Positions 2,558-62,942 of a DNA stretch of 64,000 nucleotides are shown here, one piece after another. The notes under the pieces are model-generated. The model was given only the letters and a program-made list of their open reading frames with translations. It was not told the DNA's origin and made no database searches. Origin of the DNA: Haliscomenobacter hydrossis DSM 1100 (GTDB lineage Bacteria > Bacteroidota > Bacteroidia > Chitinophagales > Saprospiraceae); assembly GCF_000212735.1 (NCBI RefSeq), contig NC_015510.1:5643001-5707000 (forward strand), in the 5' to 3' direction. The position numbers and the translations under genes were made by a program. Positions within the stretch are counted from its first letter, which is position 1. Each line of letters starts with the position of its first letter.

Positions 2558-2707
2558 AAGTTTACAAAGTTGGGTTCGGGGGTTCGAAAGTTCGAGGGTT
2601 CGACAAGGGTTCGAGGGTTCGAAAGTTCGAGGGTTCGGGGGTTGCACACAATCCTGGCCGAATGTCGAACCCCCGAACCCCCGAACCCCCAGACTGTTAA
2701 ACTTTTC
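2558..2707. repeat. Intergenic palindrome, GGTTCG-word family
   Basis: A long imperfect inverted repeat between divergently transcribed genes. The left arm is built of reiterated GGGTTCG/GTTCGAAAG words, and the right arm carries CGAACCCCCGAACCCCC. The outermost arms pair AAGTTTACA on the left with TGTTAAACTT on the right. A 22-bp segment is duplicated inside the left arm (2581-2602 and 2616-2637). The same word family recurs at 20294-20410 and 22857-22985. Confidence 0.85.
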
Positions 2708-2773
2708 ATAAACCTCTTTAACGGATGAGTGACTTACTTTAATTTCCGCATCAGAAATACAAAACACGTGAAG

Positions 2774-3310
2774 ATGAAAAATGCCCTAATGTTTTTGTTT
2801 TTGCTCGCGGCACTGAGCAGTTGTAGTCCTCGTCTGTCTTATTTTACGCAGGATTTGTACGAGCGCAACCGCTGGAGCGATTCAGAATTGAAAAAAATTC
2901 AGTTTTACCTTTCAGATGACGTGTACCTGCGCCGGAAATTGGGTGACAACTCTTCTGAAATTGTAGAAGGGAAAGTACGGGTGGTGAATGGACAAAAAAT
3001 TGAAGAAATTTATATTCCCCGCAGCACTCCGGGGGTATTTATGTTTAGCCCCAAAGCCAATCGGTTTGCGGTAGCTTTTGAAAATGGTTCCGATTCGCGT
3101 TTTTTGATGTTTGGCCCAAACCCCAAAGCTGGAGAACGATTCGTTTTGTTGGCCAAAGATTGGGAACGCAGCACTGGGACCGTGACCTACGACGGCAAAG
3201 AATACGAGGTCAATTATGGAGCCGCTTTTGCCGGACTGATGGTTGATTTGCGTCGCATTGACCGTCAGGATCGCAACAGCCGCACTGCTGAAGGGAGGAA
3301 AGTGGATTAA
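2774..3310 (+). CDS. Small putative lipoprotein of unknown function
   Basis: 178 residues from ATG 2774, chosen because it opens directly on a lipoprotein signal (MKNALMFLFLLAALSSC, lipobox LSSC, Cys about 17). An upstream in-frame start at 2729 would put 15 polar residues ahead of the signal. The mature part is mixed alpha/beta with no recognised catalytic motif. It contains a VFMFSPKANRFAVAFE segment that reads like a beta-rich core, and a basic C-terminus. The cell location is inferred to be lipid-anchored in the envelope. It stands alone between two repeat elements; the downstream heptamer repeat begins one base after the stop codon. Function unknown. Confidence 0.75.
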   Translation: MKNALMFLFLLAALSSCSPRLSYFTQDLYERNRWSDSELKKIQFYLSDDVYLRRKLGDNSSEIVEGKVRVVNGQKIEEIYIPRSTPGVFMFSPKANRFAVAFENGSDSRFLMFGPNPKAGERFVLLAKDWERSTGTVTYDGKEYEVNYGAAFAGLMVDLRRIDRQDRNSRTAEGRKVD

Positions 3311-3442
3311 GCGAAAAGCGAATAGCGAAAAGTAAGCACACCATTGATTTTTCACCGCGTACTATTTATTTTTCGCTATTCGCTATTCGCTATTCGCTAT
3401 TCGCTATTCGCTATTCGCTATTCGCTATTCGCTATTCGCTAT
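3311..3442. repeat. Heptamer tandem repeat (TCGCTAT)x10 with inverted partner
   Basis: Ten perfect copies of TCGCTAT run from 3373 to 3442. The complementary word (AGCGAAAAGCGAATAGCGAAAAG) lies at 3311-3333, so the whole can fold into a hairpin with many alternative registers. It begins one base after the lipoprotein stop. A perfect heptamer array is expected to vary in copy number between strains. The remainder of this gap (3443-3702) is AT-rich and must hold the promoter of the TetR gene, but I see no convincing -33/-7 pair or operator palindrome. Confidence 0.9.
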
Positions 3443-3702
3443 TCAATTTGTTTTTGCTGTTTCCATAATACAGCGCTGTTTAGGTGAATGATCAAAAAAA
3501 ATTGCGCTAAAATTAAAGTTTTTTTTGCTTTTAATTTTATTTTAAACAAAAAAATAATTTTCAATAAATGTATTTTTTAGCATCTATTCCCGAACTTGAG
3601 CGTTTCGTTTACTTTACCTTGTGATTAAGCTTCCAAAGCATTCCTGAATTCCCACTCTCCTCCTCTTACCCAAAACAAAATCTCCCTTTTTTAACAATAT
3701 TG

Positions 3703-4338
3703 ATGAATATGGCCCTCAAACCTACCAAGCAACGCATCATTGATGCTGCCATTACCCTGTACAATACCCAAGGAGTCAGCAATACGACCTTGAAACACAT
3801 CGCTGAAAGTGTAGGTATGAGCATCGGCAATTTGGCTTATCACTATCCCAATCACGACTACATCATTGAAGAAGTATACCGACAATTGGAAATTGACCGC
3901 TTACAGGTATTCAAGGACATGATGGAAGCACCTACATTCGAAAACATCAATGTACAGTTAGACTCCTTGATCGACTTGGCTCAGAAGTACCTTTTTATTC
4001 AATTGGATGGTCCATATATCATGCGCAACTATCCCGTACTCGCAGAATTGCAGCGCCAGTTTTATGAAAATTCGATGAATTTTGTAAAAATGGCCATTAA
4101 TATGGCCGTTGAGTTGGGTAATATTGTGCAGGAGCAATTGCCCGAACAATACCAAAGGTTATCCCATGTCATTTGGATGCTCGTTACTTTTTGGTGCGTG
4201 CAACACGCGCTGAGGGAACATAAGAAAGTGGATGTAGAAGAAGTAAGACAATGCATCTGGAGTTTAATTATGCCCATTTTAACCCCCAAAGGAAAACATT
4301 TGTTTAATAAAATATCCGAAGCCAATAAACTATCTTAG
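3703..4338 (+). CDS. TetR/AcrR family transcriptional regulator
   Basis: 211 residues from ATG 3703; an ATG six bases later is equally possible, and a TTG sits just upstream. The N-terminus holds a TetR-type helix-turn-helix (about residues 8-55): QRIIDAAITLYNTQGVSNTT, then HIAESVGMSIGNLAYHYPNH, where the Y-H-Y-P recognition-helix end is typical. The C-terminal part is helical and would be the ligand and dimer domain. The gene is 17 bp upstream of the flavin monooxygenase and heads the lipid-modification cluster. It is inferred to be the local repressor, responding to a fatty-acid-like or aldehyde ligand. The ligand cannot be read from sequence. Confidence 0.9.
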   Translation: MNMALKPTKQRIIDAAITLYNTQGVSNTTLKHIAESVGMSIGNLAYHYPNHDYIIEEVYRQLEIDRLQVFKDMMEAPTFENINVQLDSLIDLAQKYLFIQLDGPYIMRNYPVLAELQRQFYENSMNFVKMAINMAVELGNIVQEQLPEQYQRLSHVIWMLVTFWCVQHALREHKKVDVEEVRQCIWSLIMPILTPKGKHLFNKISEANKLS

Positions 4339-4355
4339 CTCGATAAAAAGCAAAA

Positions 4356-5636
4356 ATGAAACGGATTTGCGTAATCGGCGCGGGATGCTCTGGAATAACT
4401 ACCGTCAAGAATCTGCTCCAGGCTGGATTGATTAACTTGGTCTGTTACGAGCAGAACGATCAAATCGGTGGCAACTGGGTATACGCACCACATGAATCAC
4501 ATTCCAGCGTGTGTGAAACCACGCACATCATCAGCTCAAAAAAAATGTCGGAATTTGTGGATTTCCCCATGCCCGACGATTATCCCGATTATCCTTCCCA
4601 TGCGCAATTGCTTCGTTATTTTCAAGCCTACACCAAGCATTTTGGTTTATCCCCTTATATCCAGTTCAACACCAAAGTAGTTAAATCCGAAAAAACACCA
4701 GATGAGCGCTGGTTGATTACCCTTGGGGACGGGCAACAAGAACGCTTCGACTATTTGCTCATCGCCAATGGCCACCACAATGTGCCTCGTCACCCTGAAC
4801 ATTTGCCGGGCAACTTCAGCGGACGTTATCTGCATGCTCATCAGTACAAAACCGCTGCTCCTTTTCAGAACGAACGCGTGTTGGTCATCGGGGCAGGCAA
4901 TTCGGGCTGTGATTGCGCGGTGGAAATCAGTCGGGTAGCTGAATTTGTAGCGATTAGCACACGTGGAGCCCAGTACATCGTTCCCAAGTTTTTTATGGGA
5001 AAACCCACCGATACCTTCAACGGACAAATGCAATGGATACCCAAACCCATTGCAGCATTTTTGCGGCAGCTAAGTTTGCGCATTCAAGTGGGAAAATATT
5101 CAGATTATGGGCTGCCTGATCCCAATTTCCCAGTGCTCAAAGCCCATCCTACGGTAAATTCAGAACTCTTGTACAAAATTCGACACGGCAAAGTACACCC
5201 CCGACCCGCAGTGTCCAGCGTGGAAGGCAAACAGGTTCGATTTGTCAATGGAACGGAGGAAGAATACGATACCATTGTCGCGGCTACGGGGTACAAGATC
5301 AGCACGCCTTTTTTTGCGCCTGATTTCATCAATTATGAGGAAGCCGATCGGGTTCCGCTTTACCTGCGCATGTTCCATCCCGACCATCCGACGCTCGCAT
5401 TTATTGGCCTGTTTCAGCCTCAGGGTGCCATCTGGCCCAGCAGCGATTTACAGGCAAAATTAGTGGCAAATTACATCGCAGGTCGTTGGGAAATGCCCAC
5501 AAATGTTGCCGAACTGGCCGAACAGGATGCCGCCCACATTGACCGCGAATTCCTCAAGGCAAAACGCCATACCATCGAAGTTCATGCTCATGAATTTGAG
5601 CGGGCCTTAAAAAAACAAATCCTTAAGATAAGTTGA
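4356..5636 (+). CDS. Flavin-containing monooxygenase (FMO/Baeyer-Villiger type)
   Basis: 426 residues. It shows the FAD Rossmann motif GAGCSG (residues 8-13) and the GGNWVY segment after the second strand. The FMO fingerprint FxGxxxHxxxY is present as FSGRYLHAHQY (about 153-163), the NADPH Rossmann motif is GAGNSG (about 178-183), and ATGYK is near 309. The family uses NADPH and O2 to oxygenate soft nucleophiles or ketones; some members (AlmA, MymA) act on long-chain lipids. The start ATG follows the TetR gene by 17 bp, implying one transcript. The company of an acyl-CoA synthetase, SDRs and an aldehyde dehydrogenase points to a lipid-like substrate (inference). The stop codon lies inside the first bases of the following palindrome. 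Confidence 0.92.
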   Translation: MKRICVIGAGCSGITTVKNLLQAGLINLVCYEQNDQIGGNWVYAPHESHSSVCETTHIISSKKMSEFVDFPMPDDYPDYPSHAQLLRYFQAYTKHFGLSPYIQFNTKVVKSEKTPDERWLITLGDGQQERFDYLLIANGHHNVPRHPEHLPGNFSGRYLHAHQYKTAAPFQNERVLVIGAGNSGCDCAVEISRVAEFVAISTRGAQYIVPKFFMGKPTDTFNGQMQWIPKPIAAFLRQLSLRIQVGKYSDYGLPDPNFPVLKAHPTVNSELLYKIRHGKVHPRPAVSSVEGKQVRFVNGTEEEYDTIVAATGYKISTPFFAPDFINYEEADRVPLYLRMFHPDHPTLAFIGLFQPQGAIWPSSDLQAKLVANYIAGRWEMPTNVAELAEQDAAHIDREFLKAKRHTIEVHAHEFERALKKQILKIS

Positions 5637-5790
5637 AAAGTTTAGGGTTGAAGGGTTGAAAAGTAGTAAAAAGTTGATGAGACGATTCTCTTTTGTCTCG
5701 ATCAATTGAATAGAAACCAGGAAATGGTCTTTAAAACACTGAAACTTTTAAACTACTTTTCAACCCTAAACTTTTCAACTTTAAACTTTT
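5631..5790. repeat. Intergenic palindrome, GTTGAAAAG-word family
   Basis: The left arm (5631-5668) reads GTTGAAAAGTTTAGGG..., and the right arm (5750-5780) carries its reverse complement, ending CTAAACTTTTCAACT. About 80 bp of unrelated loop separates them. The TGA of the monooxygenase gene is part of the left arm, and the next gene starts 8 bp after the element. The same word family recurs at 43873-43963 and in weaker form at 38170-38275. In an mRNA it would form a strong stem. Confidence 0.85.
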
Positions 5791-5797
5791 GAAATTC

Positions 5798-6568: not shown

Positions 6569-6641
6569 AAAACTTTGAGACAGCCCCAATGTATTGCTCA
6601 AAAGTTTTATCTTAACAGGCCAAAATAACCTACAGCAGATC

Positions 6642-8948: not shown

Positions 8949-9767
8949 GTGAAAGACTTCAGTAAAAAAATAGCCGTGATCACGGGTGCAGGCTCTGGGA
9001 TGGGGCGTGAATTGGCCATCCAACTGGCTGCCGCGGGCGCCAAGGTAGTGCTCAATGATTGGAACGAAACCTCCCTGAATGAGACCATTCAACTTATTGA
9101 ACAAAATGGGGGAAGTGCTGGCGGGCGCGCCTTTAGCGTCGCCGATCGCTTGGAGGTGTACAACTTTGCCCAGGAAACGGTGAATCGTTTTGGCGGAGTA
9201 GACATCGTGGTGAACAACGCGGGAATTTCCCTTTTGCAGCAAAAAATTGAAAGCACGCCCTACGAGCTTTTTGAAAAAGTGATCAACATCAACATGTGGG
9301 GGGTGATTTATGGCTCAAAAGCCTTCATTCCTTTCCTGAAAGAACGGCCTGAAGCAGCGCTTGTCAACGTATCCAGCATTTTTGGCATTGCTGCCTATCC
9401 CGATCAGGGACCTTACGTGACCGCCAAATTTGCGGTGCGTGGATTTACCGAAACCCTCCGTCAGGAAATGGCCGGAACCAGTGTGACCGTGACTTGTGTA
9501 CACCCTGGAGGCATTAAAACCAATATTGTCCGCAACATCGATACTACCCAAAAGGCCCGCCTGGATAAGTTTTCGGATGTTTTTGACCGCATGGCCAAAA
9601 TGAGCGCAGCCGATGCAGCTACCCGCATCATCAAGGGTATTCAGCGCAAGGAAAAACGGGTGTTGGTGGGGAAAGATGCCCTGTTTATGGACAAAATAGC
9701 CCGGCTTTTTCCCAGCAATTACGAGGATACCATCATGAAGGGGTACGATATCAAAAAATTCCCGTAG
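8949..9767 (+). CDS. SDR-family NAD(P)-dependent oxidoreductase, SadH-like
   Basis: 272 residues with a GTG start at 8949; the nearest upstream ATG runs straight into TAA. It has the glycine motif TGAGSGMG (about 12-19), NNAG, catalytic Ser in NVSSIFG (about 141) and intact YVTAK (about 155-159). The stretch KFAVRGFTETLRQEM followed by VTCVHPGGIKT is what I recall for mycobacterial SadH (Rv3085) and related 'acetoin-dehydrogenase-like' SDRs. The extra C-terminal helix (about 215-272) is also typical. It likely oxidises or reduces a hydroxy/keto lipid. The stop codon TAG is formed by the first bases of the following hairpin element. Transcription may need its own promoter because an antisense gene sits upstream. 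Confidence 0.88.
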   Translation: MKDFSKKIAVITGAGSGMGRELAIQLAAAGAKVVLNDWNETSLNETIQLIEQNGGSAGGRAFSVADRLEVYNFAQETVNRFGGVDIVVNNAGISLLQQKIESTPYELFEKVININMWGVIYGSKAFIPFLKERPEAALVNVSSIFGIAAYPDQGPYVTAKFAVRGFTETLRQEMAGTSVTVTCVHPGGIKTNIVRNIDTTQKARLDKFSDVFDRMAKMSAADAATRIIKGIQRKEKRVLVGKDALFMDKIARLFPSNYEDTIMKGYDIKKFP

Positions 9768-9793
9768 GGGCAACCCTATGTGGTTGCCCCACG
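9764..9793. repeat. Short hairpin, GGGGCAACC family
   Basis: GTAGGGGCAACC and GGTTGCCCCAC are separated by a few bases, giving a strong 10-12 bp stem. The TAG of the preceding gene is the TAG in the left arm. Close relatives occur at 52820-52890 and 62885-62942. Confidence 0.85.
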
Positions 9794-11292: not shown

Positions 11293-11542
11293 TTTTTCAC
11301 CGCAGAGTAAATGAGTACACGCGGAGTTTCGCGGAGTTTTAGTTTTAAGGAGTTTACCACCTGCGGTGGCTGGAGTTCGGGCTCTAAGAAGGTCTTACGT
11401 AAGATCAAGTCAAGAATAATGGGACTTGAGGGTAACGAACCAACTTTCAGCCATAGCGACCTCCGTGGCCTCTATGCACCGCAGGTGCCCCTAAAAAACT
11501 CCGCGGAACTCCGCGTGTACTCCTTTACTCTGCGGTGAAAAA
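11293..11542. repeat. 250-bp intergenic palindrome, CGCGGAGTT-word family
   Basis: The left arm begins TTTTTCACCGCAGAGTAAA, followed by ACGCGGAGTTTCGCGGAG. The right arm ends with the reverse complement (CCGCGGAACTCCGCGTG, then TTTACTCTGCGGTGAAAAA). Inner arms pair ACCACCTGCGGTG with CACCGCAGGTG. About 110 bp in the middle is not palindromic. It fills the gap between two convergent genes (11243-11565) and could terminate both. Small open frames inside it are not genes. Confidence 0.85.
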
Positions 11543-15929: not shown

Positions 15930-15939
15930 GATCGGCCTA

Positions 15940-16089
15940 GCACCCGCCTGCGGCGGCTGACGTGGGTTTAATTCGCCCGCAGATTGCGCAGATTTCCGCA
16001 GATAATTTCTCTCTGAGAAAAAAATCTGCGGAAATCTGCGCGATCTGCGGGCGAAAATTAATCGATTTTAGTCCGCCGCAGGCGGGCAT
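15940..16089. repeat. Intergenic palindrome, GCAGATTTCCGCAGAT-word family
   Basis: Nested arms. The outer pair is CGCCTGCGGCGG (15945-15956) with CCGCCGCAGGCG (16072-16083). The inner pair is CGCCCGCAGATTGCGCAG with its reverse complement at about 16036-16053, and the core is ATCTGCGGAAATCTGCG. The outer CCGCCGCAGGCG word is shared with the element at 33640-33793. Confidence 0.85.
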
Positions 16090-17263: not shown

Positions 17264-17376
17264 ATAAGGTTGAGAAAGTTGAGGGAGGTTGAGAAGGTTG
17301 AGGCTACCGCGAACTACTTAGAAGTGTCCTTGTCTAAGTCGCTCGCGGTAGCCTCAACCTTCTCAACCTCTCTATC
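17264..17376. repeat. Intergenic palindrome, AAGGTTGAG-word family
   Basis: The left arm (17264-17310) is made of GATAAGGTTGAGAAAGTTGAG-type words ending GAGGCTACCGCGA, and the right arm reads TCGCGGTAGCCTCAACC followed by TTCTCAACCTCTCTATC. It exactly fills the gap between the stop codons of two convergent genes (17263 and 17379), so it is a likely bidirectional terminator. Confidence 0.85.
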
Positions 17377-19341: not shown

Positions 19342-19553
19342 AAACCAGTCGCGTAGCGACGACCCATTTTGTAGCGGCGGGTTTCAACCCGCCGATGGAA
19401 GGTTCAATGATCTTAATGGAGTGCTGTAGGCACGGCTTATTTTGACCTTGATTCGTCGTACCTACGGCACTCCATTGATAGGGTTATGGCCATTGACGGC
19501 GGGTTGAAACCCGCCGCTACAAAATGATTCATCGCTACGCGATTTGTCGGTTT
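19342..19553. repeat. 210-bp intergenic palindrome, GCGGCGGGTTTCAACCCGCC family
   Basis: The left arm starts AAACCAGTCGCGTAGCGAC and continues into CATTTTGTAGCGGCGGGTTT; the right arm is its near reverse complement ending CGCTACGCGATTTGTCGGTTT. An inner pair ATGGAGTGC(TGTAGGCAC) and GTACCTACGGCACTCCAT closes around a short loop. The GCGGGTTTCAACCCGC word is itself palindromic. The rest of the tadA-FAH gap (19253-19341 and 19554-19657) shows no gene or recognisable site. Confidence 0.85.
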
Positions 19554-20293: not shown

Positions 20294-20410
20294 GAGGGTT
20301 CGGGGGTTCGAAGGTTCGGGGGTTCGTGAACCGCGCACCTCGGCTTCACTTCGACTTCGCTCAGTGACCAGCTCGGCGACCGGTTCACGAACCCTCGAAC
20401 TCCCGAACCC
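20294..20410. repeat. Intergenic palindrome, GGTTCG-word family with shared loop
   Basis: The left arm is GGAGGGTTCGGGGGTTCG followed by AAGGTTCGGGGGTTCGTGAACC, and the right arm is GGTTCACGAACCCTCG then AACTCCCGAACCC. The asymmetric loop contains CACTTCGACTTCGCTCAGTG. The element stops one base before the trpS stop codon and starts 12 bp after the FAH-gene ATG. A near-identical element with the loop in the opposite orientation is at 22857-22985. Confidence 0.9.
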
Positions 20411-21421
20411 TTAATATTTTACATTCAATAGCCCCGCCAACTCCTTCACATTCCGCAAAGTTTGTTGAGCGCGTTCGCGAATTTGCGCCGAGGAAGCTTT
20501 GATTTCTTCTTTGACTTCTTTTTTCCGGGTATTGAGTTCGGCGCGTTTGCTGCGCACGGCTTCAGAAATTTCTACCAAAGCCTCGGCAACGGCTTCTTTG
20601 AGCGGGGCGTACTTCAAATTGCCCGCGTCGTAGTCTGCTTTAAGCGCAGTATAAGTCTCTATTTTTTCACAGGCTTTCAGTAACTCAAAGAGGTTTTTTA
20701 CACCTGGGCTCATTTCTCCTCCCGTATTTTCACCCGTGTCGGTCACCGCCGAGCGCACTTGTTTGCGAATTTTGTCGCTATCCGAAAAAAGGCTGATGTA
20801 GTGCTTTTCTCCCGCACTTTTGCTCATTTTGCGGGAAGGGTCGGCAGTAGAGGTAATTTTGGTGAATTCGGTATACAGTGGCTCGGGCATGATCAAATAT
20901 TCCTTGCCCACCTGGTTGTTGAAACGTTGAACGATGTTGCGGGCCAATTCGAGGTGCTGCTCCTGGTCTTTGCCGACGGGTACGTAATCGGCACGGTACA
21001 CGCAGATGTCGGCAGCTTGCAAAACCGGGTAATCAAACAAGCCAGCCGAAATAAATCCATCTTCACCTTCAGAAGCAGTGGCACTTTTGTCTTTAAACTG
21101 GGTCATGCGCGACAACTGGCCGTAAGAGGCAAAGCAATTGAAAATCCAGCAAAGCTCCGTATGCTCGGGTACGAGTGATTGAATGAAGAGATTTTGAGGC
21201 TCAATGCCCACAGCCATGAGGTTGAAAATCAATTCCCAGGTATTTTCCCGCAGTTTGATGGGGTTAAAAGGCATGGTCATGGCGTGGTAATCCACCACCC
21301 CGTACATGCATTCGTAGGTTGCTTGCAATTCTACCCAGTTCTTAACCGCGCCGAAGTAGTTGCCAAAATGCATATCACCAGTAGGCTGGATGCAGGAGAG
21401 TACACGTTTTTTATCACTCAT
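20411..21421 (-). CDS. trpS: Tryptophanyl-tRNA synthetase
   Basis: 336 residues, a normal length. The class I signatures are present: HFGNY (HIGH-like, in PTGDMHFGNYFGAV, residues about 13-26) and RKMSKS near residue 195. QSLVPEHTELCWIFNCFASYGQLSRMTQFKDK and DYPVLQAADICVYRADYVPVGKDQ... regions are characteristic of TrpRS. It charges tRNA-Trp in the cytoplasm. The C-terminal half is helical and Lys/Glu-rich. Its start is 18 bp downstream of the ridA stop, so the two are probably co-transcribed. Confidence 0.96.
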   Translation of the reverse strand: MSDKKRVLSCIQPTGDMHFGNYFGAVKNWVELQATYECMYGVVDYHAMTMPFNPIKLRENTWELIFNLMAVGIEPQNLFIQSLVPEHTELCWIFNCFASYGQLSRMTQFKDKSATASEGEDGFISAGLFDYPVLQAADICVYRADYVPVGKDQEQHLELARNIVQRFNNQVGKEYLIMPEPLYTEFTKITSTADPSRKMSKSAGEKHYISLFSDSDKIRKQVRSAVTDTGENTGGEMSPGVKNLFELLKACEKIETYTALKADYDAGNLKYAPLKEAVAEALVEISEAVRSKRAELNTRKKEVKEEIKASSAQIRERAQQTLRNVKELAGLLNVKY

Positions 21422-22856: not shown

Positions 22857-22985
22857 TTAGGGTTCGGGGGTTCGAAGGTTCGGGGGTTCGTGAACCGGTC
22901 GCCGAGCTGGTCACTGAGCGAAGTCGAAGTAAAGCCGAGTTGCGCAGTTCACGAACCCCCGAACCCCCGAACCCCCGAACCCAAC
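22857..22985. repeat. Intergenic palindrome, GGTTCG-word family with shared loop (inverted)
   Basis: The left arm is TAGGGTTCGGGGGTTCG plus AAGGTTCGGGGGTTCGTGAACC, and the right arm contains ACGAACCCCCGAACCCCCG. The loop is CGCCGAGCTGGTCACTGAGC then GAAGTCGAAG, the reverse complement of the loop at 20294-20410. The element ends 13 bp before the ATG of the T9SS cargo gene. Confidence 0.9.
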
Positions 22986-30148: not shown

Positions 30149-30161
30149 GTTCTTGTTAAGG

Positions 30162-30196
30162 TTTTAAGTTTTAGGTTTTAGGTTTTAGGTTTTAGG
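30162..30196. repeat. Heptamer tandem repeat (TTTTAGG), five units
   Basis: TTTTAAG followed by four perfect TTTTAGG copies and GGTTGAA, 14 bp upstream of the subtilase ATG. There is no palindromic partner, unlike the other repeat elements. Copy-number change would alter the leader of the protease operon. Confidence 0.85.
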
Positions 30197-31094: not shown

Positions 31095-31188
31095 ATCGAA
31101 TGACGAGTTTTTCGAATGACGAGTGACGAATAATCGCCAGCGTGTGGCCTGATTCGTCATTCGTCATTCGAAATATTCGTCATTCATC
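31095..31188. repeat. Intergenic palindrome, GAATGACGA-word family
   Basis: The left arm is ATCGAATGACGAGTTTTTCG with GAATGACGAGTGACGAAT, and the right arm is ATTCGTCATTCGTCATTCG followed by AATATTCGTCATTC. It fills precisely the gap between the stops of two convergent genes (31094, 31189). The same words occur at 50037-50146 and 50651-50758. Confidence 0.9.
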
Positions 31189-33603: not shown

Positions 33604-33639
33604 CGCTTTGTTTGGGTCGAATACAAGGCAAATTGTAAA

Positions 33640-33793
33640 AGTTTAGCACCCCGCCTACTGCGGATTTTTTTTCACCACAGATTCCACAGATTTTCACAGA
33701 TTTTATGAATATGACAAGAAATCTGTGAAAATCTGTGGAATCCGTGGTGAAATCATCTTTATCAATTTCCGCCGCAGGCGGGGTGCTAAAGTT
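33640..33793. repeat. Intergenic palindrome, CACAGATTCCACAGATTTTC family
   Basis: Outer arms pair GTTTAGCACCCCGCC with GGCGGGGTGCTAAAGT. Inner arms pair TTTCACCACAGATTCCACAG with CTGTGGAATCCGTGGTGAAA, and the core pairs TTTCACAGATTT with AAATCTGTGAAA. The outer CCGCCGCAGGCG word is shared with 15940-16089. Confidence 0.9.
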
Positions 33794-33835
33794 ATACGGC
33801 AAGTTTACGGAAAGATTGGGAGAAAAAGGAGAAAG

Positions 33836-33978
33836 GGGCGACTTAGGAATGATGAAAAAATAACTACCACCTTTTCACTTTGCTCTTTTGTGTTTATTCA
33901 TCCTATCTTTTCCGTCCCTAAGCACAAAATAGCTGCGTCTAAAGGTGTCATTTATTTTTTCATCGTTCCTAAGTCGCC
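33836..33978. repeat. Inverted repeat overlapping the 3' end of the AraC-type gene
   Basis: The 27-bp arm at 33836-33862 (GCGACTTAGGAATGATGAAA...) pairs with 33952-33978, differing at one position. The right arm contains the last codons and the stop of the regulator gene. The stretch between them (33863-33951) and the rest of the gap hold no other gene. Confidence 0.8.
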
Positions 33979-35040
33979 CATCCTCCTGAACGCCGAAGGC
34001 GTAACCCCCATTACCTTCTTAAAAGCAACATTAAACACCGACAAGGTATTGAAGCCACTATCAAACGCCACCGCAGCAATTTTCAAGTGCGTGCATTGCG
34101 GGTCGAGCAACAAGTAACAAGCATATTCCACCCGGTGCCGGTTCAGCCAATCGGAAAAATTGCTGCCCTCATAAGTGTTGATGTAATGCGAAAGGGCATG
34201 GGGGCTGATGTCCAGTTGTTGCGCCAGCTTGTCCAAGGTCAATTCGGGATTCAGAAAAACACCTTTCTCCGCTAGCAGTTTTTGTAGATTCTCCCGAATT
34301 TGCGGGATCTTTTCTGATTTTAGTACACTCACTTTGTTCCCTTCCAAGCCGTATCCTTTTTGGAGCAGGGCACTGTTTTTGATAAAAAAAGCCAAAATCG
34401 CATACACAATGATGGTGTAAAACAGCGGGCAAAAAATGACACAAAGCAGCTTGGCGTTGTTGAAACTGTAGCCCAGAATCAACACGCTCAAAAAGAACAA
34501 CAACCCGAACATCCACTGCTGTACTTTGCGGGTATCGATTCCTTCCGCACGCTTTTTGGCAAGCTCGGACAGAAATAGCCGATAACCGTACACCAGGTAC
34601 AGGATCCAATGCAGCAAAGTCAATTGATTGATCAGGAACCAGCCATCGTTAAACGGCTCAAAAAAGGGGGCGGGTGAAAAAACACGGCGGCCAAGCAGAC
34701 TCAAACCCAGCAAAACCAGCGCGGGAATCAGGTGCAAACGAAAAAAAGCCCGAGCTGGGGGCGTTTTGAACACCGAAAGCACATACACGACAAAAGATGG
34801 CCCCAAGCACAAGTTGAGCACCAAACCCCAATCCGCCCAATCCGCCAGAGGGCTCCGGTAAAAATAATGAACGGTGGTAATGGCAAAACGCAAGCTGAGC
34901 AGGAAAATAAACCAGCCCAGGTAACGATTGGAATCTTGGGGCACACTGCGTGCTTGACGCAGCAAATATCCGCCAAATAAAAGCCCGTTGGCGATGCCCA
35001 AACTTGCAAATGCGGCGAATAAACTGTCGAATTGATACAT
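33952..35040 (-). CDS. Membrane-bound AraC-family transcriptional regulator
   Basis: 362 residues. About seven membrane helices (1-235, starting ASLGIANGLLFGGYLL) are followed by an AraC-type DNA-binding domain with two helix-turn-helix units (about 262-355): LTLDKLAQQLDISPHALSHY, then LKIAAVAFDSGFNTLSVFNV with FKKVMGVTPSAFRR. This layout is frequent in Bacteroidota and senses membrane or extracellular cues. No target is obvious; the divergent beta-propeller gene 35118 could be controlled by it. The last nine or so codons lie in an inverted-repeat arm, so the extreme C-terminus (DLGTMKK) may be repeat-derived. Confidence 0.88.
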   Translation of the reverse strand: MYQFDSLFAAFASLGIANGLLFGGYLLRQARSVPQDSNRYLGWFIFLLSLRFAITTVHYFYRSPLADWADWGLVLNLCLGPSFVVYVLSVFKTPPARAFFRLHLIPALVLLGLSLLGRRVFSPAPFFEPFNDGWFLINQLTLLHWILYLVYGYRLFLSELAKKRAEGIDTRKVQQWMFGLLFFLSVLILGYSFNNAKLLCVIFCPLFYTIIVYAILAFFIKNSALLQKGYGLEGNKVSVLKSEKIPQIRENLQKLLAEKGVFLNPELTLDKLAQQLDISPHALSHYINTYEGSNFSDWLNRHRVEYACYLLLDPQCTHLKIAAVAFDSGFNTLSVFNVAFKKVMGVTPSAFRRMGDLGTMKK

Positions 35041-43872: not shown

Positions 43873-43963
43873 TAGTTGAAAAGTTTAGGGTTGAAGAGTT
43901 GAAAAGACCGCACTTCGCTCAGTGATCAGTCTTTTCAACTCTTCAACCCTAAACTTTTCAACT
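43873..43963. repeat. Intergenic palindrome, GTTGAAAAG-word family with shared loop
   Basis: Arms of about 35 bp are almost perfectly complementary (left starts AGTTGAAAAGTTTAGGGTTG, right ends AACCCTAAACTTTTCAACT). The loop CGCACTTCGCTCAGTGATCA contains part of the shared loop core. It ends two bases before the sigma-factor stop codon. Confidence 0.9.
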
Positions 43964-44677: not shown

Positions 44678-44873
44678 AACGCAATAATTTAATGAAAAAA
44701 CAGTTTAGTCGATTTTTTTTAAAATTAACCAAACATTAAGGTTTTTCTAGGGTTTCCCCTAATGCCTGAGGATACACAGATTTGATGTGTAAAACTTTTT
44801 GTACGCATCTTTTGCGGAGATGGGTGCTCTGTTAAACTTTTTGTATCTTGCATGCTCTAACTGCCGTTACATT

Positions 44874-47723
44874 ATGAAACAAAAGGCTACCATCGAAGCG
44901 CCTACTCCGACAACAGGCACTGACCATTGGATTCAGATCCGGGGTGCCCGCGGGAACAACCTTAAAAACATCAATTTAGACATTCCCAAGAACCAGTTGG
45001 TAGTGGTTACGGGTGTTTCGGGTTCGGGTAAATCCACGATCACGATGGATACCCTCTATGCTGAAGGCCAGCGGCGCTACGTAGAAAGCCTCTCTTCTTA
45101 TGCCCGGCAGTTTTTGGGGCGGATGAAAAAACCGGAGGTCGACTACATCAAGGGCATTTGTCCGGCCATCGCCATTGAGCAAAAAGTTAGCACCAGCAAT
45201 GCGCGCTCCACCGTGGGAACGCTGACCGAAATATACGATTACCTGCGCCTGCTGTACGCACGAGTAGGCAGAACGTATTCGCCCATCTCGGGGGCTCAGG
45301 TGAAAAAGCACGAGGTCAAAGACGTCAACGACTACATCCATACTTTTCCAGCGGGCGCTCGGGTACAATTGTTCATCCCCCTACCTTATAAATACAAAGA
45401 CCGCTTGCTGGATCGAGAGTTGAGTCTTTTGTTGCAAAAAGGCTACAGCCGCTTGCGCAAAGAAGGGGAATTGATGGACATCCAGGATTTCCTCACTAGC
45501 AATGATACCATCCTGAAATTGAAAATTGAGGACATCCCCACGGATACCTTATACATTTTGATCGACCGCTTTGCCGTAAGTGAAGAAGAAGACAACATTC
45601 GCCGGATTGCCGACTCTATCCAGACCGCTTTTTACGAAAGTGAAGGCGAATGTTGGGTAGATGTAGTCGGCAGCGAGGCCATGAAGGGCTTCAACAACCG
45701 TTTTGAACTGGATGGTCTACTTTTCATCGAACCCAATCCTCAACTTTTCAACTTCAACAATCCCTTTGGCGCGTGTCCAAGTTGTGAAGGATTCAGCATG
45801 GTGATGGGGATTGATGAAGACAAAGTGGTGCCCGACAAATCCTTGTCCTTATACGAAGGTGCCATTGCTTGTTGGAAAGGGGAAAAATTGGGCCTTTGGT
45901 TGGAAGAAGTGCTGGCGCATGCCCACAAGTACAATTTCCCGGTGCATCTGCCTTACCGAGACTTAAGCAAAGAACAGCGCAATATGCTTTGGAAAGGCAC
46001 CAGTTCTTTTGGGGGCATCCGTGCGTTTTTTAAAGAATTGGAAGAAAAAGCCTACAAGGTTCAAAACCGGGTGATGCTGGCCCGTTACCGTGGCCGCACG
46101 CTTTGCCCAACCTGCGAAGGTGCCCGCCTGCGCGTAGAAGCCACTTACGTAAAAGTTGGTGGCAGAGGCATCCATGAACTGATTGATGAACCAATTGACG
46201 AACTCTATCAATTTTTTAAAAGTATCGATCTGGGTGATTTTGATAAAAAAGTAGGCAATCGCCTCTTGCAGGAAATCAGCTCCCGGCTGCAATACATGTG
46301 TGATTTGGGACTGGGTTACCTGACACTCAATCGGGTTTCGGCCACGTTGAGCGGCGGCGAAACCCAGCGCATCAACCTCACCCGTTTGTTGGGCAGCAAC
46401 CTCACCAGCTCGATGTACATCCTGGATGAACCCAGTGTTGGGCTACATCCCCGCGATACCGAACGTTTGGTAAAAGTGCTCCGCACGCTGCGCGATTTGG
46501 GCAATACCGTCATCGTGGTAGAACACGAAGAAGACCTGATCAAAAATGCCGATTACCTGATTGATATTGGCCCGGCTGCCGGGATACACGGCGGCGAGGT
46601 GGTTTTTGCCGGCCCTTATGCCGACATCTACACCGATGCTGCCAATAGTTTGACCACTCTATACATGAGTGGGCGCATGGAAATTCCAGTGCCCGGTTTC
46701 CGCCGTAAAACCAGTGATTTTATCTGGGTAAAAGGCGCGCAACAAAACAATCTCCAGAACATTGATGTGGCATTTCCGCTGCATACGATGATTGCGGTGA
46801 GTGGGGTTTCTGGTTCGGGCAAAACCACCCTGGTAAAACAGATCCTGTACCCGGCTCTCAAAAGAGAACTGGGTGAAGCCACGCCCAAGGCTCCCGGTTT
46901 ACACCGGGGAATCGAAGGGCCGTTTAAAAAAATCAAAGCGGTTGAAATGGTCAACCAAAGTCCGATCGGCAAGTCCTCGCGCTCCAATCCGGTGACTTAC
47001 GTGAAGGCGTATGATGCCATCCGCGACTTGTTTACCAATCAACAACTGGCCAAAATCCGGGGCTTCAAACCTAAACACTTTTCCTTCAATGTAGACGGTG
47101 GCCGTTGTGATGCCTGTAAGGGAGAAGGAGAACAAATCATCGAAATGCAATTCCTGGCCGATGTGCGCCTGGAATGTGAGGTCTGCCAGGGCAAACGTTT
47201 CAAAACCGAAGTACTCGATGTAGTATACAAAGGCAAAAACATCCACGAGGTATTGGAAATGAGCATCGATGAGGCCATGGAATTTTTTGCTGAGCACAAG
47301 GATATCATTTCCAAAATCAAACCTTTGCAAGACGTTGGTCTGGGTTATGTACACATGGGGCAGTCTTCCAGCACTTTGTCGGGTGGCGAAGCCCAACGGG
47401 TAAAGTTGGCCTCTTTCCTGAACCAGGAACATGCCAATCAACACGTGCTGTTCATCTTCGACGAACCCACTACGGGGCTGCACTTTCACGACATCCGCAA
47501 GCTGTTGGATGCCCTCAATGCCCTGGTGGAAAAAGGACATACGGTCATTGTAGTAGAACACAACCTGGAAGTGATCAAATCCGCCGACTGGGTGATTGAC
47601 CTGGGGCCCGACGGGGGCAAAGGCGGCGGAGAATTGGTTTATCAAGGGACTCCAGAGGGTTTGCTGAAAGTGGAAGGGTCGATTACAGGAAAATATTTGC
47701 AAACAAAATTGAACCAGATCTAG
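44874..47723 (+). CDS. uvrA: UvrABC excinuclease subunit A
   Basis: 949 residues from ATG 44874; an in-frame TTG at 44799 is a weaker choice. It has two ABC ATPase modules. Walker [10 protein letters not shown] is near residue 50 and again near 645 ([10 protein letters not shown]). Signature LSGGE occurs twice ([26 protein letters not shown]), and Walker B reads [13 protein letters not shown] and [13 protein letters not shown]. Zinc modules include CPTCEGARL and [11 protein letters not shown] ... CEVCQGKRF. It recognises DNA damage in nucleotide excision repair. Full length and intact. Confidence 0.97.
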
Positions 47724-47966
47724 GTTTTTTTCATTAAAGCCTAGTCAACTTATCTTGTTTTTTTAATTTAGCGCCATCTTCAAGAGGTGCTCAAGCCTAT
47801 TGTTATTAAACTTGTCTTGTTGTTGAAAATCTAAAAAATTGATGAGCAACCAAATACATAAACATTGATTGTTTTTAATTATAGACGTCAGTGGAGTCCA
47901 GAAACCACTAAAAAACGGGGCGAGACCGAAAAGCCTTACGAGTAGGAAAAAAAAAACTGTATTTCG

Positions 47967-50036: not shown

Positions 50037-50146
50037 GATGGAATGACGAATTTTTTTTGAATAACGAGTGACGAATACTCGGTCACTGAGCGAAGCCGAA
50101 GTGCCGAGTATTCGTCATTCGTCACTCGAAGAATTCGCCATTCATA
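50037..50146. repeat. Intergenic palindrome, GAATGACGA-word family with shared loop
   Basis: The left arm carries GAATGACGAATTTTTTTTG and AATAACGAGTGACGAATACT. The core is CTCGGTCACTGAGCGAAGCC with GAAGTGCCGAG, and the right arm is AGTATTCGTCATTCGTCACT. It starts 2 bp after the fabG stop. Near-copy at 50651-50758 on the other side of the next gene. Confidence 0.9.
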
Positions 50147-50666: not shown

Positions 50667-50758
50667 GAGAATGACGATACTCGGTCACTGAGCGAAGCCG
50701 AAGTGCCGAGTATCGTCATTCGTCATTCGTCATTCGTCATTCGAATTATTCGTCATTT
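50651..50758. repeat. Intergenic palindrome, GAATGACGA-word family with shared loop
   Basis: The core CTCGGTCACTGAGCGAAGCC with GAAGTGCCGAG is identical to that at 50037-50146, and the outer arms are GAATAACGAATGAGAGAATG and the reverse words ATTCGTCATTCGTCATTCG. CGTCATT is repeated five times in the right arm. It overlaps the DinB-like stop codon and ends 3 bp before the stop of the minus-strand gene at 50762. Confidence 0.9.
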
Positions 50759-58324: not shown

Positions 58325-58894
58325 TCAAGACTTACGAATATTTTTACGGATGCGGCTCAACGATTGGGGGGCAATACCCAGGTAAGAGGCCAGGTGTTTG
58401 AGGGGAACCCGTTGCAGCAGATCGGCATCGGCATGCAACATCATTCGATAGCGGTTTTCTGCGGTTTCGGTTTGTAGTGCTTCCAGAATTTCCTCAGTAT
58501 AAGTTTGCACCTCTTGCACCAATAACCGGATGAAGGTGCTCCAGGAATTGAGTGTCAACAAACGTTGGGCGTCTTCGTAACTCATTTGCCAAATGATGCT
58601 GTCTTCGAGCGTTTCGATATTTTCCTGTGCGGGTGTTTGTTTGGCAAAACTTTTTTGAGAGGTAAAAACATAGGGCACATCGGTGAAGTATTTGGTGATG
58701 TCGTTGCCGTCTTTCCATACAAAGAAGCGGAGTAGTCCGGTTTCCAGGAAATACAAGTGCTTGCAGGTTTTACCTTCTTCGAGGAGGATGCTTTCTTTGG
58801 CAATTTCCCGACGGGAGATACAAGCTTCGATAGTATTCCAATCCGCATCAGAAAGGGGAATGTAGCGCTGGATGAATTGTCTGAATGGGTGCAT
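58325..58894 (-). CDS. Crp/Fnr family transcriptional regulator
   Basis: 189 residues. The cyclic-nucleotide-binding jelly roll spans residues about 15-125 (EESILLEEGKTC-like, LYFLETGLLRFFVW, DITKYFTDVPYVFTSQKSFA). The C-terminal helix-turn-helix is short (LASYLGIAPQSLSRIRKNI). No PRxxDR cAMP-binding signature is seen. A GTG three codons upstream is a weaker start. It probably controls the SRPBCC gene behind it and others. Confidence 0.88.
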   Translation of the reverse strand: MHPFRQFIQRYIPLSDADWNTIEACISRREIAKESILLEEGKTCKHLYFLETGLLRFFVWKDGNDITKYFTDVPYVFTSQKSFAKQTPAQENIETLEDSIIWQMSYEDAQRLLTLNSWSTFIRLLVQEVQTYTEEILEALQTETAENRYRMMLHADADLLQRVPLKHLASYLGIAPQSLSRIRKNIRKS

Positions 58895-59048
58895 ATTGGG
58901 CACTTAGTTGGAGGTTAATTGTTGATCATTCCAATGCCGCAAAATTGCATCGGCTAAAAAATTAACATTAAATATTCGGAGACGTAAAAAACAAAATTCT
59001 ATTGGAATCGTTCATCTGGTTTCATAAATGCCGATTAAAATTTCAGTT

Positions 59049-60317: not shown

Positions 60318-60328
60318 AACTTCAAATC

Positions 60329-62380
60329 ATGAAAAAGCTATTTACCCGACCCATCCCTGTGTTGCTGCTTTTGTTTGTGTTGTTGTTTTGTGAAAAAGAG
60401 TTTAATGGCGAGCGCCCATTTGTACGCCTGGTTACCCTTCCGCCAACTGAGTTGAACGAGGAGGGGGTCACGCTGAATGGGGAATTTCTGGATTTGAGCG
60501 GCGGAGAGATGAGTGATTATGGTTTTTTGATAGATGCTGAAAACATTAAACCGGATGTAGTAAAAAACCCTGATGTTTTGAAATTTTCGTTAAAAACAGA
60601 GACACCAAAATTGGGCAGATTCAGTTTTCGGGCAGAATATAGCCTGAGCGTCGGGCAGACTTATTATATAAGGGCTTATGCTATACAGGGGAATAATTTC
60701 ATATTCGGAGAAGAGTTTTCTTTTGTAAGTAAGGGAGGGGCAGCAAATCCAAGCATCACAGATTTTTCACCTGTTCATATAGTGCCTGGAGATACCTTAA
60801 CCCTTGTAGGGCAAAACTTTACACTTGGCCTCCCCAGACTTAGTGCCTATCTTGCTGGCAAGGAGGCGGAAATTGTTGGTTCTCCTTCCAATACTCAATT
60901 GAAAATCCGTGTGCCGTTGGGTATCCCCTTATCTGGTAAAATTCAGTTGACGGTTGGTTTTATTAGCATCACACTTGATAAAAATTATCAACGCCTCAAA
61001 CCGGAAATGTTGAAAGTTCCAGGCATAGTTAAATATGGAGCATCATTTTTGGTAGAATGTAAAAATCTGAGTAAAATCTTCGGAAGTAACGAAGTATTGA
61101 TTGGCAAAAATGGCGACTATCAGAGCTGCTTAGTGCTTCAGGAACAAAAAGACGCCCTGCTGGTTAAATTGGACGACGGTAATGCTTACGACCCCGAACG
61201 TGGAGATAGTTTGTTTGTATTTGCTGCGGCCTTGCCGATAAGCACTAAGGTCAATATCGCAAATCCGGAAATTTCGGGCATCTCGCCAGCAGTTGTATTT
61301 CCGGATGATGAAGTTACGCTGGTTTGCGATGGCATTTCCACCAATAAGAATGTTACTAAAATTAGCTGGAATGGTGCCGAGATTCCTTCAGCAAATTATT
61401 CGATTGGGGCTGCCGGTAAACAGGTTACGCTGAAAGTGCCTTATTGGGGAAATATACCTGGTACAATCAAAGTGATGGTAAGATCTGGTCAAAGAGTTTC
61501 CAACGAAATGACAACAAGGGTAGCCGTGGATTTGCTAACCTTGAACGAGGAACAGAAGGCCTGGAAGTATGCTTTTAACTTGAATGATAAGTTGTTTATT
61601 GGTTTGCCCTCTGGCGAATTTCCTTTCGAATACATCGATCCTTCCAAAAAAGCACCTGCGTTACAACGGATTTCAAGTTCATCCAGGCAAATTTTTGAAC
61701 ATGCTTTTCCTACTCAAAACGATCAACTATTGGCATTATCAATTGAGAACTCCAGCGCGGTGGAGGGACAACTATTGGGAATTCTTGCCAACAATACGGC
61801 CCAGCTTATAGCCAAAAGTGCCAATAAAATACCCTTGTCTACCAGTTCCACGGCGCCTTTAAAAATCAGGGGTATTGCTACAAAAAACAATGCTTTAAGT
61901 TATTTATTTGTGTCAAACAGCCCCAATAATTTTTGGCAATTTAATGCGAGTACCCGGCAGTTTCGGTCCTTGCTAGACCTGCCTTTGAGGAGTGATCAAG
62001 AAGTTCGGGAGTTGATATTATTTGATCAGGGAACAAAAATCATTGCCCTGGTATTCTATCGGGATGATTCCTTTATTGAGATTAAAGAGTACAATCCAGC
62101 CCAAAACACCTGGCAAGAAAACTATTCTTTTCTTGATCCCTTCATCAGCTACAATGATGCATTTATTTATCCACTGGAAAATTCATTCTATTTTTTAATG
62201 TCATCCAATAAAGCAGATCAGTTCGCTTTATGCAATGAGAATTTGGTCATCAATTACCGAATGCCAGTACTTTTTGATAAAGGCAAATTCAGCGCAAAAA
62301 AGAAAGCATTTTTTATGGGCAATCGAGTGGTAATCATTGACAATGAAAGCATTTACCGAACGCATTTGGCCACTGAGTAA
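60329..62380 (+). CDS. IPT/TIG-domain lipoprotein, possibly Kelch-like
   Basis: 683 residues. A lipoprotein signal (PVLLLLFVLLFC, Cys about 21) is followed by a FN3-like segment (about 30-130). Then come IPT/TIG immunoglobulin-like repeats (PSITDFSPVHIVPGDTLTLV and PEISGISPAVVFPDDEVTLV). The C-terminal region (about 410-683) has beta-propeller-type repeats with Kelch-like strands. Probably a surface-exposed lipoprotein. It follows the outer-membrane protein by 11 bp; the pair resembles lipoprotein/barrel partner systems but lacks SusC/SusD features. Confidence 0.78.
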   Translation: MKKLFTRPIPVLLLLFVLLFCEKEFNGERPFVRLVTLPPTELNEEGVTLNGEFLDLSGGEMSDYGFLIDAENIKPDVVKNPDVLKFSLKTETPKLGRFSFRAEYSLSVGQTYYIRAYAIQGNNFIFGEEFSFVSKGGAANPSITDFSPVHIVPGDTLTLVGQNFTLGLPRLSAYLAGKEAEIVGSPSNTQLKIRVPLGIPLSGKIQLTVGFISITLDKNYQRLKPEMLKVPGIVKYGASFLVECKNLSKIFGSNEVLIGKNGDYQSCLVLQEQKDALLVKLDDGNAYDPERGDSLFVFAAALPISTKVNIANPEISGISPAVVFPDDEVTLVCDGISTNKNVTKISWNGAEIPSANYSIGAAGKQVTLKVPYWGNIPGTIKVMVRSGQRVSNEMTTRVAVDLLTLNEEQKAWKYAFNLNDKLFIGLPSGEFPFEYIDPSKKAPALQRISSSSRQIFEHAFPTQNDQLLALSIENSSAVEGQLLGILANNTAQLIAKSANKIPLSTSSTAPLKIRGIATKNNALSYLFVSNSPNNFWQFNASTRQFRSLLDLPLRSDQEVRELILFDQGTKIIALVFYRDDSFIEIKEYNPAQNTWQENYSFLDPFISYNDAFIYPLENSFYFLMSSNKADQFALCNENLVINYRMPVLFDKGKFSAKKKAFFMGNRVVIIDNESIYRTHLATE

Positions 62381-62387
62381 TCAGGGC

Positions 62388-62873
62388 CTACTCCTGCTTC
62401 ACCGCCTCGTACATCTTCTTCACCTCCTCCAACGAAAACCGTTGGTTCAGCGCCGTAGTAAACACCACTTCGGTATCACGTACCAGGTGTACATAGCGGA
62501 AACTGTAGCGATTTTCTCCTTGTCCTTTCACTTCGTAAATGAAACCATCGGTGTGTTGCTCGACAATTTTGCCAAAATCGGGATTGCTGTATACTTCGCG
62601 GATTTGGCGGAAAGTTTGTTCCACTAATTTTTGGCCTCGGGCTTTACCCGAATAGATTTGAATGGCATAGGGCGTCGAACCCGTTGACGTAATGGAGACA
62701 TCTTTGACTCCGGCCAGCTCAAAGTTTTCAACACTGGTGCTGTCCGGAGGGGTCAAAACAACCGCAGGAATACCATATGCCTTGAGGTCAATGGACTTCC
62801 AAGGTTTGGATGTAGGGCCAATACAGGTACTCAGTACCGAGGCCAGCAGTAGGAAGATTGAAAATTGTTTCAT
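62388..62873 (-). CDS. Small lipoprotein of unknown function
   Basis: 161 residues from ATG 62873; an in-frame GTG/ATG further upstream would enter the repeat. Lipoprotein signal FLLLASVLSTC. The rest is alpha/beta, with GKARGQKLVEQTFRQIREV and IYEVKGQGENRYSFRYVHLV. No family recognised. It is convergent with the IPT lipoprotein gene, with only 7 bp between stops. Confidence 0.7.
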   Translation of the reverse strand: MKQFSIFLLLASVLSTCIGPTSKPWKSIDLKAYGIPAVVLTPPDSTSVENFELAGVKDVSITSTGSTPYAIQIYSGKARGQKLVEQTFRQIREVYSNPDFGKIVEQHTDGFIYEVKGQGENRYSFRYVHLVRDTEVVFTTALNQRFSLEEVKKMYEAVKQE

Positions 62874-62884
62874 GTGGTTACTCT

Positions 62885-62942
62885 GTAGGGACAACCCTTT
62901 GTGGTTGTCCCTACAATGGGCAACCACAAAGGGTTGCCCTTA
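62885..62942. repeat. Double hairpin, GGGGCAACC family
   Basis: TGTAGGGACAACCC with GGTTGTCCCTACA, then GGGCAACCACAAAGGGTTGCCC. It lies 11 bp upstream of the minus-strand lipoprotein ATG. Related elements at 9764-9793 and 52820-52890, here with GGGACAACC in place of GGGGCAACC in the first hairpin. Confidence 0.85.

Follow-up and report, generated by a model that had tools for sequence, protein, structure and literature searches.

The window analyzed here is a stretch of 64,000 nucleotides (G000:C1:5643001-5707000) from the genome of Haliscomenobacter hydrossis O^T, a member of the Saprospiraceae that lives in fresh water and forms sheaths (PMC3156403), and its intergenic gaps hold palindromes whose arms are mostly built of short words repeated with small changes. 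The genome scanned comprises 8,771,651 bases in four contigs, and the main text of the genome paper (PMC3156403) contains no word beginning with "palindrom". Inverted repeats were sought with an exact 9-base seed, ungapped extension, a score of at least 16 and a loop of at most 250 bases, the score threshold being 14, 15 or 16 depending on the script. The 64-kb window yielded 18 palindromes, whereas 20 dinucleotide shuffles gave 0.05 on average and never more than 1; this bears out the intergenic palindromes with reiterated-word arms that an earlier look at the letters (the sequence-only reading) had described. The structures are not confined to a few gaps of the window, as twenty 20-kb stretches taken at 400-kb spacing, a 400-kb sample, gave 93 palindromes against 0 with one shuffle each. 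The palindromes are confirmed as genuine and their abundance as far above chance; extrapolation from 111 in 464 kb would put the genome-wide number at about 2,100.

The features of the window are given below, with the strand where one was assigned. "Core" denotes a short sequence with the consensus CGGTCRCYGAGCGRAGYCGARGTGCCG, found within differing palindromes, and G002 and G004 are related genomes in which the same gaps were read.

2572-2690: GGTTCG-word palindrome; G004 has a short core hairpin there, G002 neither palindrome nor core hairpin
3310-3444: GCGAA/GCTATTC-word palindrome, its right side a 7-base array of 10 copies
5630-5796: GTTGAAAAGTTTAGGG-word palindrome in a tandem gap; the same gap holds a GGTTCCA palindrome in G004 and a ACTTCTCCGAAGTCG palindrome in G002
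9764-9790, + strand: single hairpin like a repetitive extragenic palindrome (REP), 5' GTAG with GGGGCAACCC; absent from G002 and G004
11293-11542: CGCAGAG/CGCGGAGTT-word palindrome in a convergent gap
15972-16055: GCAGATTT-word palindrome nested within a CCGCCTGCGGCGG palindrome (about 15939-16088)
17267-17373: AAGGTTGAG-word palindrome with inner module GGCTACCGCG..., convergent gap; same family in other spelling in G002 and G004
19344-19547: composite TCGCGTAGCGACGA / GTAGCGGCGGGTTTCAACCCGCCG / GCCGTAGGTACG element, its family also standing beside a Y1 transposase gene (L009)
20295-20411: GGTTCG-word palindrome enclosing a core; G002 and G004 have just 4 bp there
20350-20363, - strand: core TGAGCGAAGTCGAA
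22851-22991: GGTTCG-word palindrome enclosing a core, divergent gap; absent from G002 and G004
22915-22928, + strand: core TGAGCGAAGTCGAA
26959-27106: nested palindrome, outer GAGTTGAG and inner GAAGTGAGCTACCGCAGCGACTT; among the matches listed, many are in G004 and few in G002
30159-30196: one-sided 7-base tandem array, no palindrome
31098-31185: GAATGACGA-word palindrome filling a convergent gap; ATGATAAG words in G004, CTTAGGTGT words in G002
33635-33797: CACAGATTTTC-word palindrome (33670-33752) nested in outer arms 33635-33664 and 33768-33797
33836-33979: inverted repeat with 61-base arms, the longest of the window; the right arm covers the last 28 nt of gene 33952-35040
43874-43963: GTTGAAAAG-word palindrome with perfect 35-base arms
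50041-50143: GAATGACGA-word palindrome with a core at its tip; same family without the core in G002, CGGATTTCGG words in G004
50087-50100, + strand: core TGAGCGAAGCCGAA
50669-50757: GAATGACGA-word palindrome with a core at its tip; ordinary terminator-like hairpin in G002 and G004
50689-50702, + strand: core TGAGCGAAGCCGAA
52820-52893: two REP-like GTAGGGGCAACCC hairpins in inverted order
62885-62943: two REP-like GTAGGG(A/G)CAACCC hairpins in inverted order; equally long gap without palindrome in G002 and G004

Two of these entries depart from the sequence-only reading of palindromes whose every arm is a repeated word: 30159-30196 is a tandem array on one side only, and 9764-9790 is a single short hairpin. 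The eight word families it named were all present in the gaps read, but more exist, about 15-20 by eye among the printed copies. Families carry regular-expression labels, and those recognized by eye include GGTTCGG, GTTGAAAAG/GTTTAGGG, AAGGTTGAG, CACAGATT/GCAGATT, GCACAAAGGACACAAAGG and GAATGACGA, and further ACGACGACACGACG, ACGCGGATGACGCGGATT, CGCGGAGTT, GCGAATAGC, AGTGAAAAG and GTTTTAGGG. A literature search with the words and the core entered as letters led to two papers, both on other subjects, and in an Rfam search of the window at gathering score no palindrome matched any family. The sole match, elsewhere in the window, was the DUF805 RNA (RF03081) at 47886-47952, annotated as cis-regulatory and lying downstream of gene 44799-47723 (81 bits against a cut-off of 51.1).

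As a guard against circularity, arrays were also searched by word only, with palindromes playing no part in their ascertainment (10 families, 464 kb). Among arrays of at least two words, 117 of 135 were accompanied by an inverted partner at most 260 bp away (a pair may contribute both its arms), and word polarity was identical in 117 of the 117 partnered arrays. The word GGTTCGGGGGTTCG has 461 exact matches in the genome, 228 and 233 per strand, and its reversed control none. Of 395 genomes of the phylum that were searched, 57 have pairs of CACAGATT, with 191 matches in H. hydrossis; the reversed control of the pair pattern matches in two among the rows listed. Twelve CACAGATT loci were opened, one of them from H. 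hydrossis, and a same-polarity inverted counterpart was seen by eye in five others (L201, L205, L206, L209, L212); none was seen by eye at L203, L204 and L207, and at L208, L210 and L211 the word was not located by the script on the strand read. Locus L203 (G181:C30), from a genome of the same family, has its CACAGATT words in a regular array on one strand, and no inverted partner lies within 300 bases of the spot inspected. These data bear on an explanation that needs no mobility, in which slippage and template switching give rise to the palindromes on the spot and lengthen them, and words are shared through shared composition. The variable number and spelling of the units would suit such growth; the 461 copies of one word, the uniform polarity and the recurrence of CACAGATT pairs across the phylum, palindromic in several of the 12 loci, argue against it.

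The core provides a second line of evidence. Its inner 14 bases have 180 exact matches in the genome and the reversed control 0, and in 51 of 88 distinct cores read the arms score at least 12 outward from these bases, some points coming from the core's own outer bases. At least five word families are represented among these arms; others fit no family that was recognized. Among the matches listed, the 25-base form of the core recurs on contigs titled as Bacteroidota groups, Spirochaetes, Cyanobacteria, Ignavibacteriota, Pseudoxanthomonas and others, many being metagenome-assembled genomes, a recurrence that also speaks against birth in place. In 80 listed loci, arms scoring at least 8 further out accompanied 15 of 86 25-base cores, compared with 0 of 430 random positions. 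It follows that the core is ancient or widely exchanged and that the arms around it are local. Similarly, the module GGCTACCGCGAGCGACT occurs within two different outer-arm families, sometimes itself enclosing the core, and word palindromes are nested inside other window palindromes at about 15939-16088 and 33635-33797. The core may also sit at the tip of one orthologue only, within the same family, as at 50041-50143, where G002 lacks it, and in gap 7152 of L357, where G002 and G004 differ. The proposal that the element is modular is supported by these observations, one core standing amid arms of different words.

Identification of the core with known hairpins was attempted in two ways. It was rejected as an unusually stable hairpin, the DNA fold z of three core strings being only -0.1 to -0.9, although its center presumably resembles the d(GCGNAGC) mini-hairpin. 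It was likewise rejected as a CGTC-type REP, as the CGTC end, 8-9 bp stem and CCA tail described for that type (PMC3733652) mismatch by eye. Eleven cores are listed within 1.5 kb at G000:C1:354193-355687 (L121-L131), a dense array that differs from the single palindromes and has short or no arms in those read. Elsewhere, two neighboring genes that look like cas1 and cas2 are separated by a gap that a core palindrome occupies in full (L017:11124-11183); its arms are not made of repeated words.

Comparison of the same gap in sister genomes was performed with three drafts, G002, G003 and G004; matched genes of G002 and G004 have about 70-90% DNA identity to H. hydrossis. The H. hydrossis gaps gave 67 pairs out of 74 gaps tried, just 4 of them from G003, and the G002/G004 pair (mean flank identity 91%) gave 99 usable orthologous gaps from 275 G002 gaps tried, in the G004 stretches compared. 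For convergent and tandem gaps of H. hydrossis, a palindrome was present in both genomes in 6, in one only in 6 and 2, and in neither in 8 against G002; against G004 the counts were 7, 5 and 2, and 8. The expectation that homologous gaps in relatives hold palindromes is therefore upheld in 13 of 24 convergent or tandem comparisons (12 H. hydrossis gaps against G002 and G004), mostly with another family. Between G002 and G004 the convergent and tandem gaps gave 23 with both, 5 and 6 one-sided and 46 with neither (Fisher p 3.9e-10), or 23, 5, 6 and 26 where either gap reached at least 60 bp (p 1.4e-6); divergent gaps gave 0, 2, 2 and 15 (p 1).

The palindromes that share a gap are frequently unrelated. 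Taking a local similarity under 0.45 as unlike, the gap-best palindromes are unlike in 15 of the 23 joint G002/G004 gaps, and unrelated palindromes remain in 13 of 23 when each is compared with the other gap in its entirety. Window gap 31098 holds three families in three genomes, as does gap 5630, with GTTGAAAAG in H. hydrossis in place of the words of its sisters. In one gap a remnant GACGAAT palindrome adjoins an ACAAAGG palindrome in G002 where G004 has a whole GACGAAT palindrome, and in another AGTGAAA words in G002 face AGTGATGA words in G004 between near-identical flanks and with the same outer letters. Near-absence in a relative occurs as well, with a gap of 116 bp facing one of 4 bp, and a 104-bp gap with a 93-bp palindrome facing 12 bp. 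Two processes would fit this pattern: palindromes may replace one another, or a fixed set of tolerant gaps may gain and lose them fast. A separate family, AAAAATAAATGTTCATTTT..., resembling a miniature inverted-repeat transposable element (MITE), is also present in one and absent in the other of G002 and G004 (L364 gap 1577, L369 gap 2733).

With gene ends taken from a home-made codon-usage caller, palindromes were found in 23 of the 49 convergent gaps, in 64 of the 228 tandem ones and in 9 of the 51 divergent ones, and 11 of 111 elements lay in called coding sequence or at its edges. Of the gene ends that face an element, 58 of 118 3' ends were within 25 bp of it, compared with 21 of 92 5' ends; the palindromes are mostly downstream of genes, close to stop codons. 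Such a location would be expected of functional hairpins, whether two-way transcription terminators or protectors of mRNA 3' ends, in which the hairpin is selected and its sequence is free. The strong concordance of presence despite changes of family points the same way, as do the ordinary terminator-like hairpins of the relatives at gap 50669 and the very stable RNA folds predicted for the six elements folded (-37 to -87 kcal/mol, z -5 to -14). Selection on RNA structure would, however, enrich G-U over A-C mismatches, and on the transcribed strand of 177 tandem-gap palindromes (5,659 pairs) 121 G-U and 111 A-C were counted (p 0.56), with 42 and 37 in convergent gaps and 5 and 11 in divergent ones. 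As there is no excess, these counts give no sign that RNA-level selection pairs the arms; it is more likely that pairing is at the DNA level or results from youth, and very long stems may still have a weak RNA effect. Terminator-like hairpins are also no scarcer in gaps of at least 60 bp that hold a palindrome (7 of 20 convergent gaps that have a palindrome and 2 of 7 that lack one; for tandem gaps, 6 of 37 and 7 of 47, respectively), sister gaps of 4-25 bp exist with no palindrome, and divergent gaps hold few, all of which leaves functional hairpins an improbable explanation.

Copies within a family differ, and their arms often change together, the compensated fraction being 0.29-0.69 by family (arms under 24 bases and the group "other" were left out of this comparison and of the paralogue counts below, and some Y1-linked elements labelled "GTTGAAA" were filtered out). 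Orthologous same-family palindromes gave 305 register pairs, of which 267 are unchanged, 33 changed on one side and 5 compensated, whereas paralogue pairs at most 15% different gave 183 compensated and 306 one-sided columns (Fisher 0.0024 against orthologues, for columns that are not independent). One-sided decay between orthologues together with compensation between paralogues seems to indicate arms that are matched when a copy is born and decay later. Continuous in-place repair between the arms was rejected, as change between orthologues is mostly one-sided. The sequence-only interpretation is partly supported as a whole; as to growth of the arms by slippage inside a hairpin, unit number and spelling do vary while the arms agree, but no growth step was seen and the orthologue counts show mainly one-sided change.

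A possible origin of matched arms is found where an element borders a gene. The core palindrome L034:7809-7901 (93 bp) lies where G002 and G004 hold 12 bp; among 44 matches listed (best 40 of 137 candidates scored), its outer arms are covered by itself and its own inverse only, other matches lying on the core and up to some 25 bases beside it. Likewise, the outer arms of G000:C1:2589661-2589751 are matched only by the element itself and its own inverse among the matches listed (best 40 of 138). Its left arm opens with the last 11 nt of the upstream gene, and at the same gene end these 11 nt are identical in G004 and differ once in G002, both genomes then continuing with another palindrome, of GATTTCGG words. 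On the far side of the core lies an inverted copy of the 11 nt with one change. The far arm thus carries an inverted copy of gene-end sequence that the relatives have, as a product of template switching would, and is the one clear case. More generally, among the 111 palindromes sampled a flanking stop codon falls within an arm 15 times, on 3 occasions together with at least 8 coding bases. For the inverted repeat at 33836-33979 the case for an inverted copy of a conserved gene end is weakened, since the similarity of gene 33952-35040 to the G002 protein stops about at the arm start, so that copying may have run either way; the repeat may have given this gene a new C-terminus. An inverted gene-end copy is also what birth in place would produce, as are the AGTGAAA and AGTGATGA words between like flanks, yet the short sister gaps that hold no palindrome add to the points made above, and birth and growth without any mobility is very unlikely.

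Part of the population can be assigned to transposases. Seven Y1_Tnp matches were found in the genome (L009-L015, G000:C1), and by eye palindromes of five families flank six of them; the seventh, L015, has an internal stop and no flanking palindrome was seen there. The window element 19344-19547 is, by eye, of one of these five families, that of the L009 flanks, which places it with the elements of REP/RAYT (TIRYT) transposases. Hairpins of REP type with a GTAG tag occur at three places in the window (9764, 52820, 62885), and the GTAGGGGCAACCC family has the 5' GTAG beside a short stem that is characteristic of REP/RAYT elements, with no cognate Y1 gene among the printed flanks of the seven matches. 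The set of palindromes is therefore mixed, comprising a Y1-family member, REP-like hairpins and word families, and the sequence-only reading's single window-wide system was too strong a claim, given at least one window element of a Y1-transposase family.

It could then be argued that all the palindromes are REP- or terminal inverted repeat (TIR)-type miniature elements, moved whole in trans by Y1 enzymes (RAYT/TIRYT), and that the word arms are degenerate stems. The palindrome-flanked Y1 genes, with a window element among their families, the GTAG-tagged hairpins and the gene-downstream location, as reported for REPs (PMC3733652), all agree with this. The word families themselves do not follow: visual inspection of the 350-470 bp that flank the seven Y1 matches on either side showed none, and by eye the printed elements have no terminal GTAG or CGTC tetranucleotide, the exception being the GGGGCAACC family, with GTAG, and no tag or ends common to the word families. 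Compensated differences among copies also count against it, and the outer arms of core palindromes have no second copy among the matches listed. Movement of the entire population by Y1 enzymes is accordingly a doubtful explanation.

The favored explanation, to which a probability of roughly one half is given, is that short mobile palindromes of many families, none of them autonomous, populate the whole genome, their second arm being made by fold-back copying and their turnover being rapid at tolerant gene 3' ends. The data themselves establish abundance, location, modularity, turnover, agreement of the arms free of RNA-level bias, and one inverted gene-end copy. Some families belong to Y1/RAYT transposases, as the genes beside them show; the word families and core palindromes would most likely spread as hairpins, their mobility being inferred. 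Upon copying or insertion, the second arm would be a fold-back copy of the first, through template switching at the hairpin; as a general rule, and in its order of events, this step is our inference. Fold-back could also copy host sequence adjoining the insertion. The arms would afterwards decay by ordinary mutation, and copies would last mainly downstream of genes, in tolerant gaps, where fast turnover would leave unrelated palindromes in the same gap of sister species and an exchangeable tip would give the elements their nested, modular look.

Several points weigh against this explanation. The elements used for the arm counts were ascertained as palindromes, and the paralogue columns are not independent. 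Among arms of at least 24 bases, an element's own arm is its nearest copy in 90 of 140 cases over all groups and in 9 of 24 for GGTTCG words, for which the best of the other copies matches equally well, so that low complexity inflates the counts. In 2 of the 15 unlike gaps a relative of one palindrome lies elsewhere in the other gap. In just 1 of 15 different-family gaps does aligned flank come within 12 bp of both junctions in G002 and G004 alike; this count does not support tidy cassette exchange at exact shared junctions and does not favor tidy replacement. Copying of host sequence by fold-back has a single clear case, with 33836-33979 as a possible second. No gene-bearing copy between long word arms was found for 10 word families in the 464 kb scanned, and hence no TIRs common to an autonomous transposon, as a MITE would have.

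A stronger form of the favored explanation would make these elements a new class of mobile repeat, in which mobility is confined to one arm or a core hairpin, and each insertion restores the opposite arm by fold-back. Copies would then be born perfect; their arms could take in host sequence or a further palindrome, and a gene 3' end already occupied would serve as a site where one palindrome gives way to an unrelated one. This is put forward tentatively, as a possibility that is rather unlikely. If the favored explanation is true, H. hydrossis would offer a worked example of the birth, pairing and replacement of intergenic palindromes in a free-living bacterium with sequenced sisters. RNA selection and DNA copying as causes of paired arms would be separable by a simple count, and searches that assume one consensus per family would miss much of a large intergenic repeat population.

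In comparison with known systems, Rho-independent terminators are likewise hairpins downstream of genes; here, the arms are much longer and have no RNA-pairing bias. MITEs are non-autonomous inverted-repeat elements that vary in presence between relatives, and the palindromes share these features, but the whole element is stem and a scan of 464 kb with 10 word families found no parent transposon; most gap edges have diverged too far to reveal a target-site duplication. The short tandemly repeated repetitive (STRR) sequences and small dispersed repeats of cyanobacteria are also short intergenic words in dispersed copies, whereas here the words are paired into palindromes of fixed polarity. REP, BIME (bacterial interspersed mosaic element) and REPIN (REP doublet forming a hairpin) sequences with their RAYT (TnpA-REP) genes, among them GTAG-tagged REPs and TIR-associated tyrosine transposases, are alike in being short, many-copy intergenic palindromes, mostly downstream of genes (PMC3733652). 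Several families of H. hydrossis flank Y1 genes, and in A. variabilis, T. roseum and H. neapolitanus REPs have been reported inside other palindromes (Di Nocera 2013, PMC3733652). The word families differ in that no Y1 gene, tag or single consensus was seen with them, and in having arms of 25-60 bases made of 7-10-base words and site-specific arms around a common core. The palindromic microsatellites of Fusarium and the double-hairpin elements of Allomyces cited with them, both mitochondrial mobile palindromes (PMC7218506), share arms of repeated units and optional presence between close species; the present elements lie in a bacterial chromosome and have longer words, many families and a modular core. 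Finally, template switching can create and fix hairpin arms in RNA genes (Monttinen and Loytynoja 2022, PMC8794818), and as in such quasipalindrome mutation, one arm of the stem would here be made from the other and reverse-complement copies arise; there it is a mutation process of RNA genes, and here it is proposed as the builder of a dispersed repeat population.

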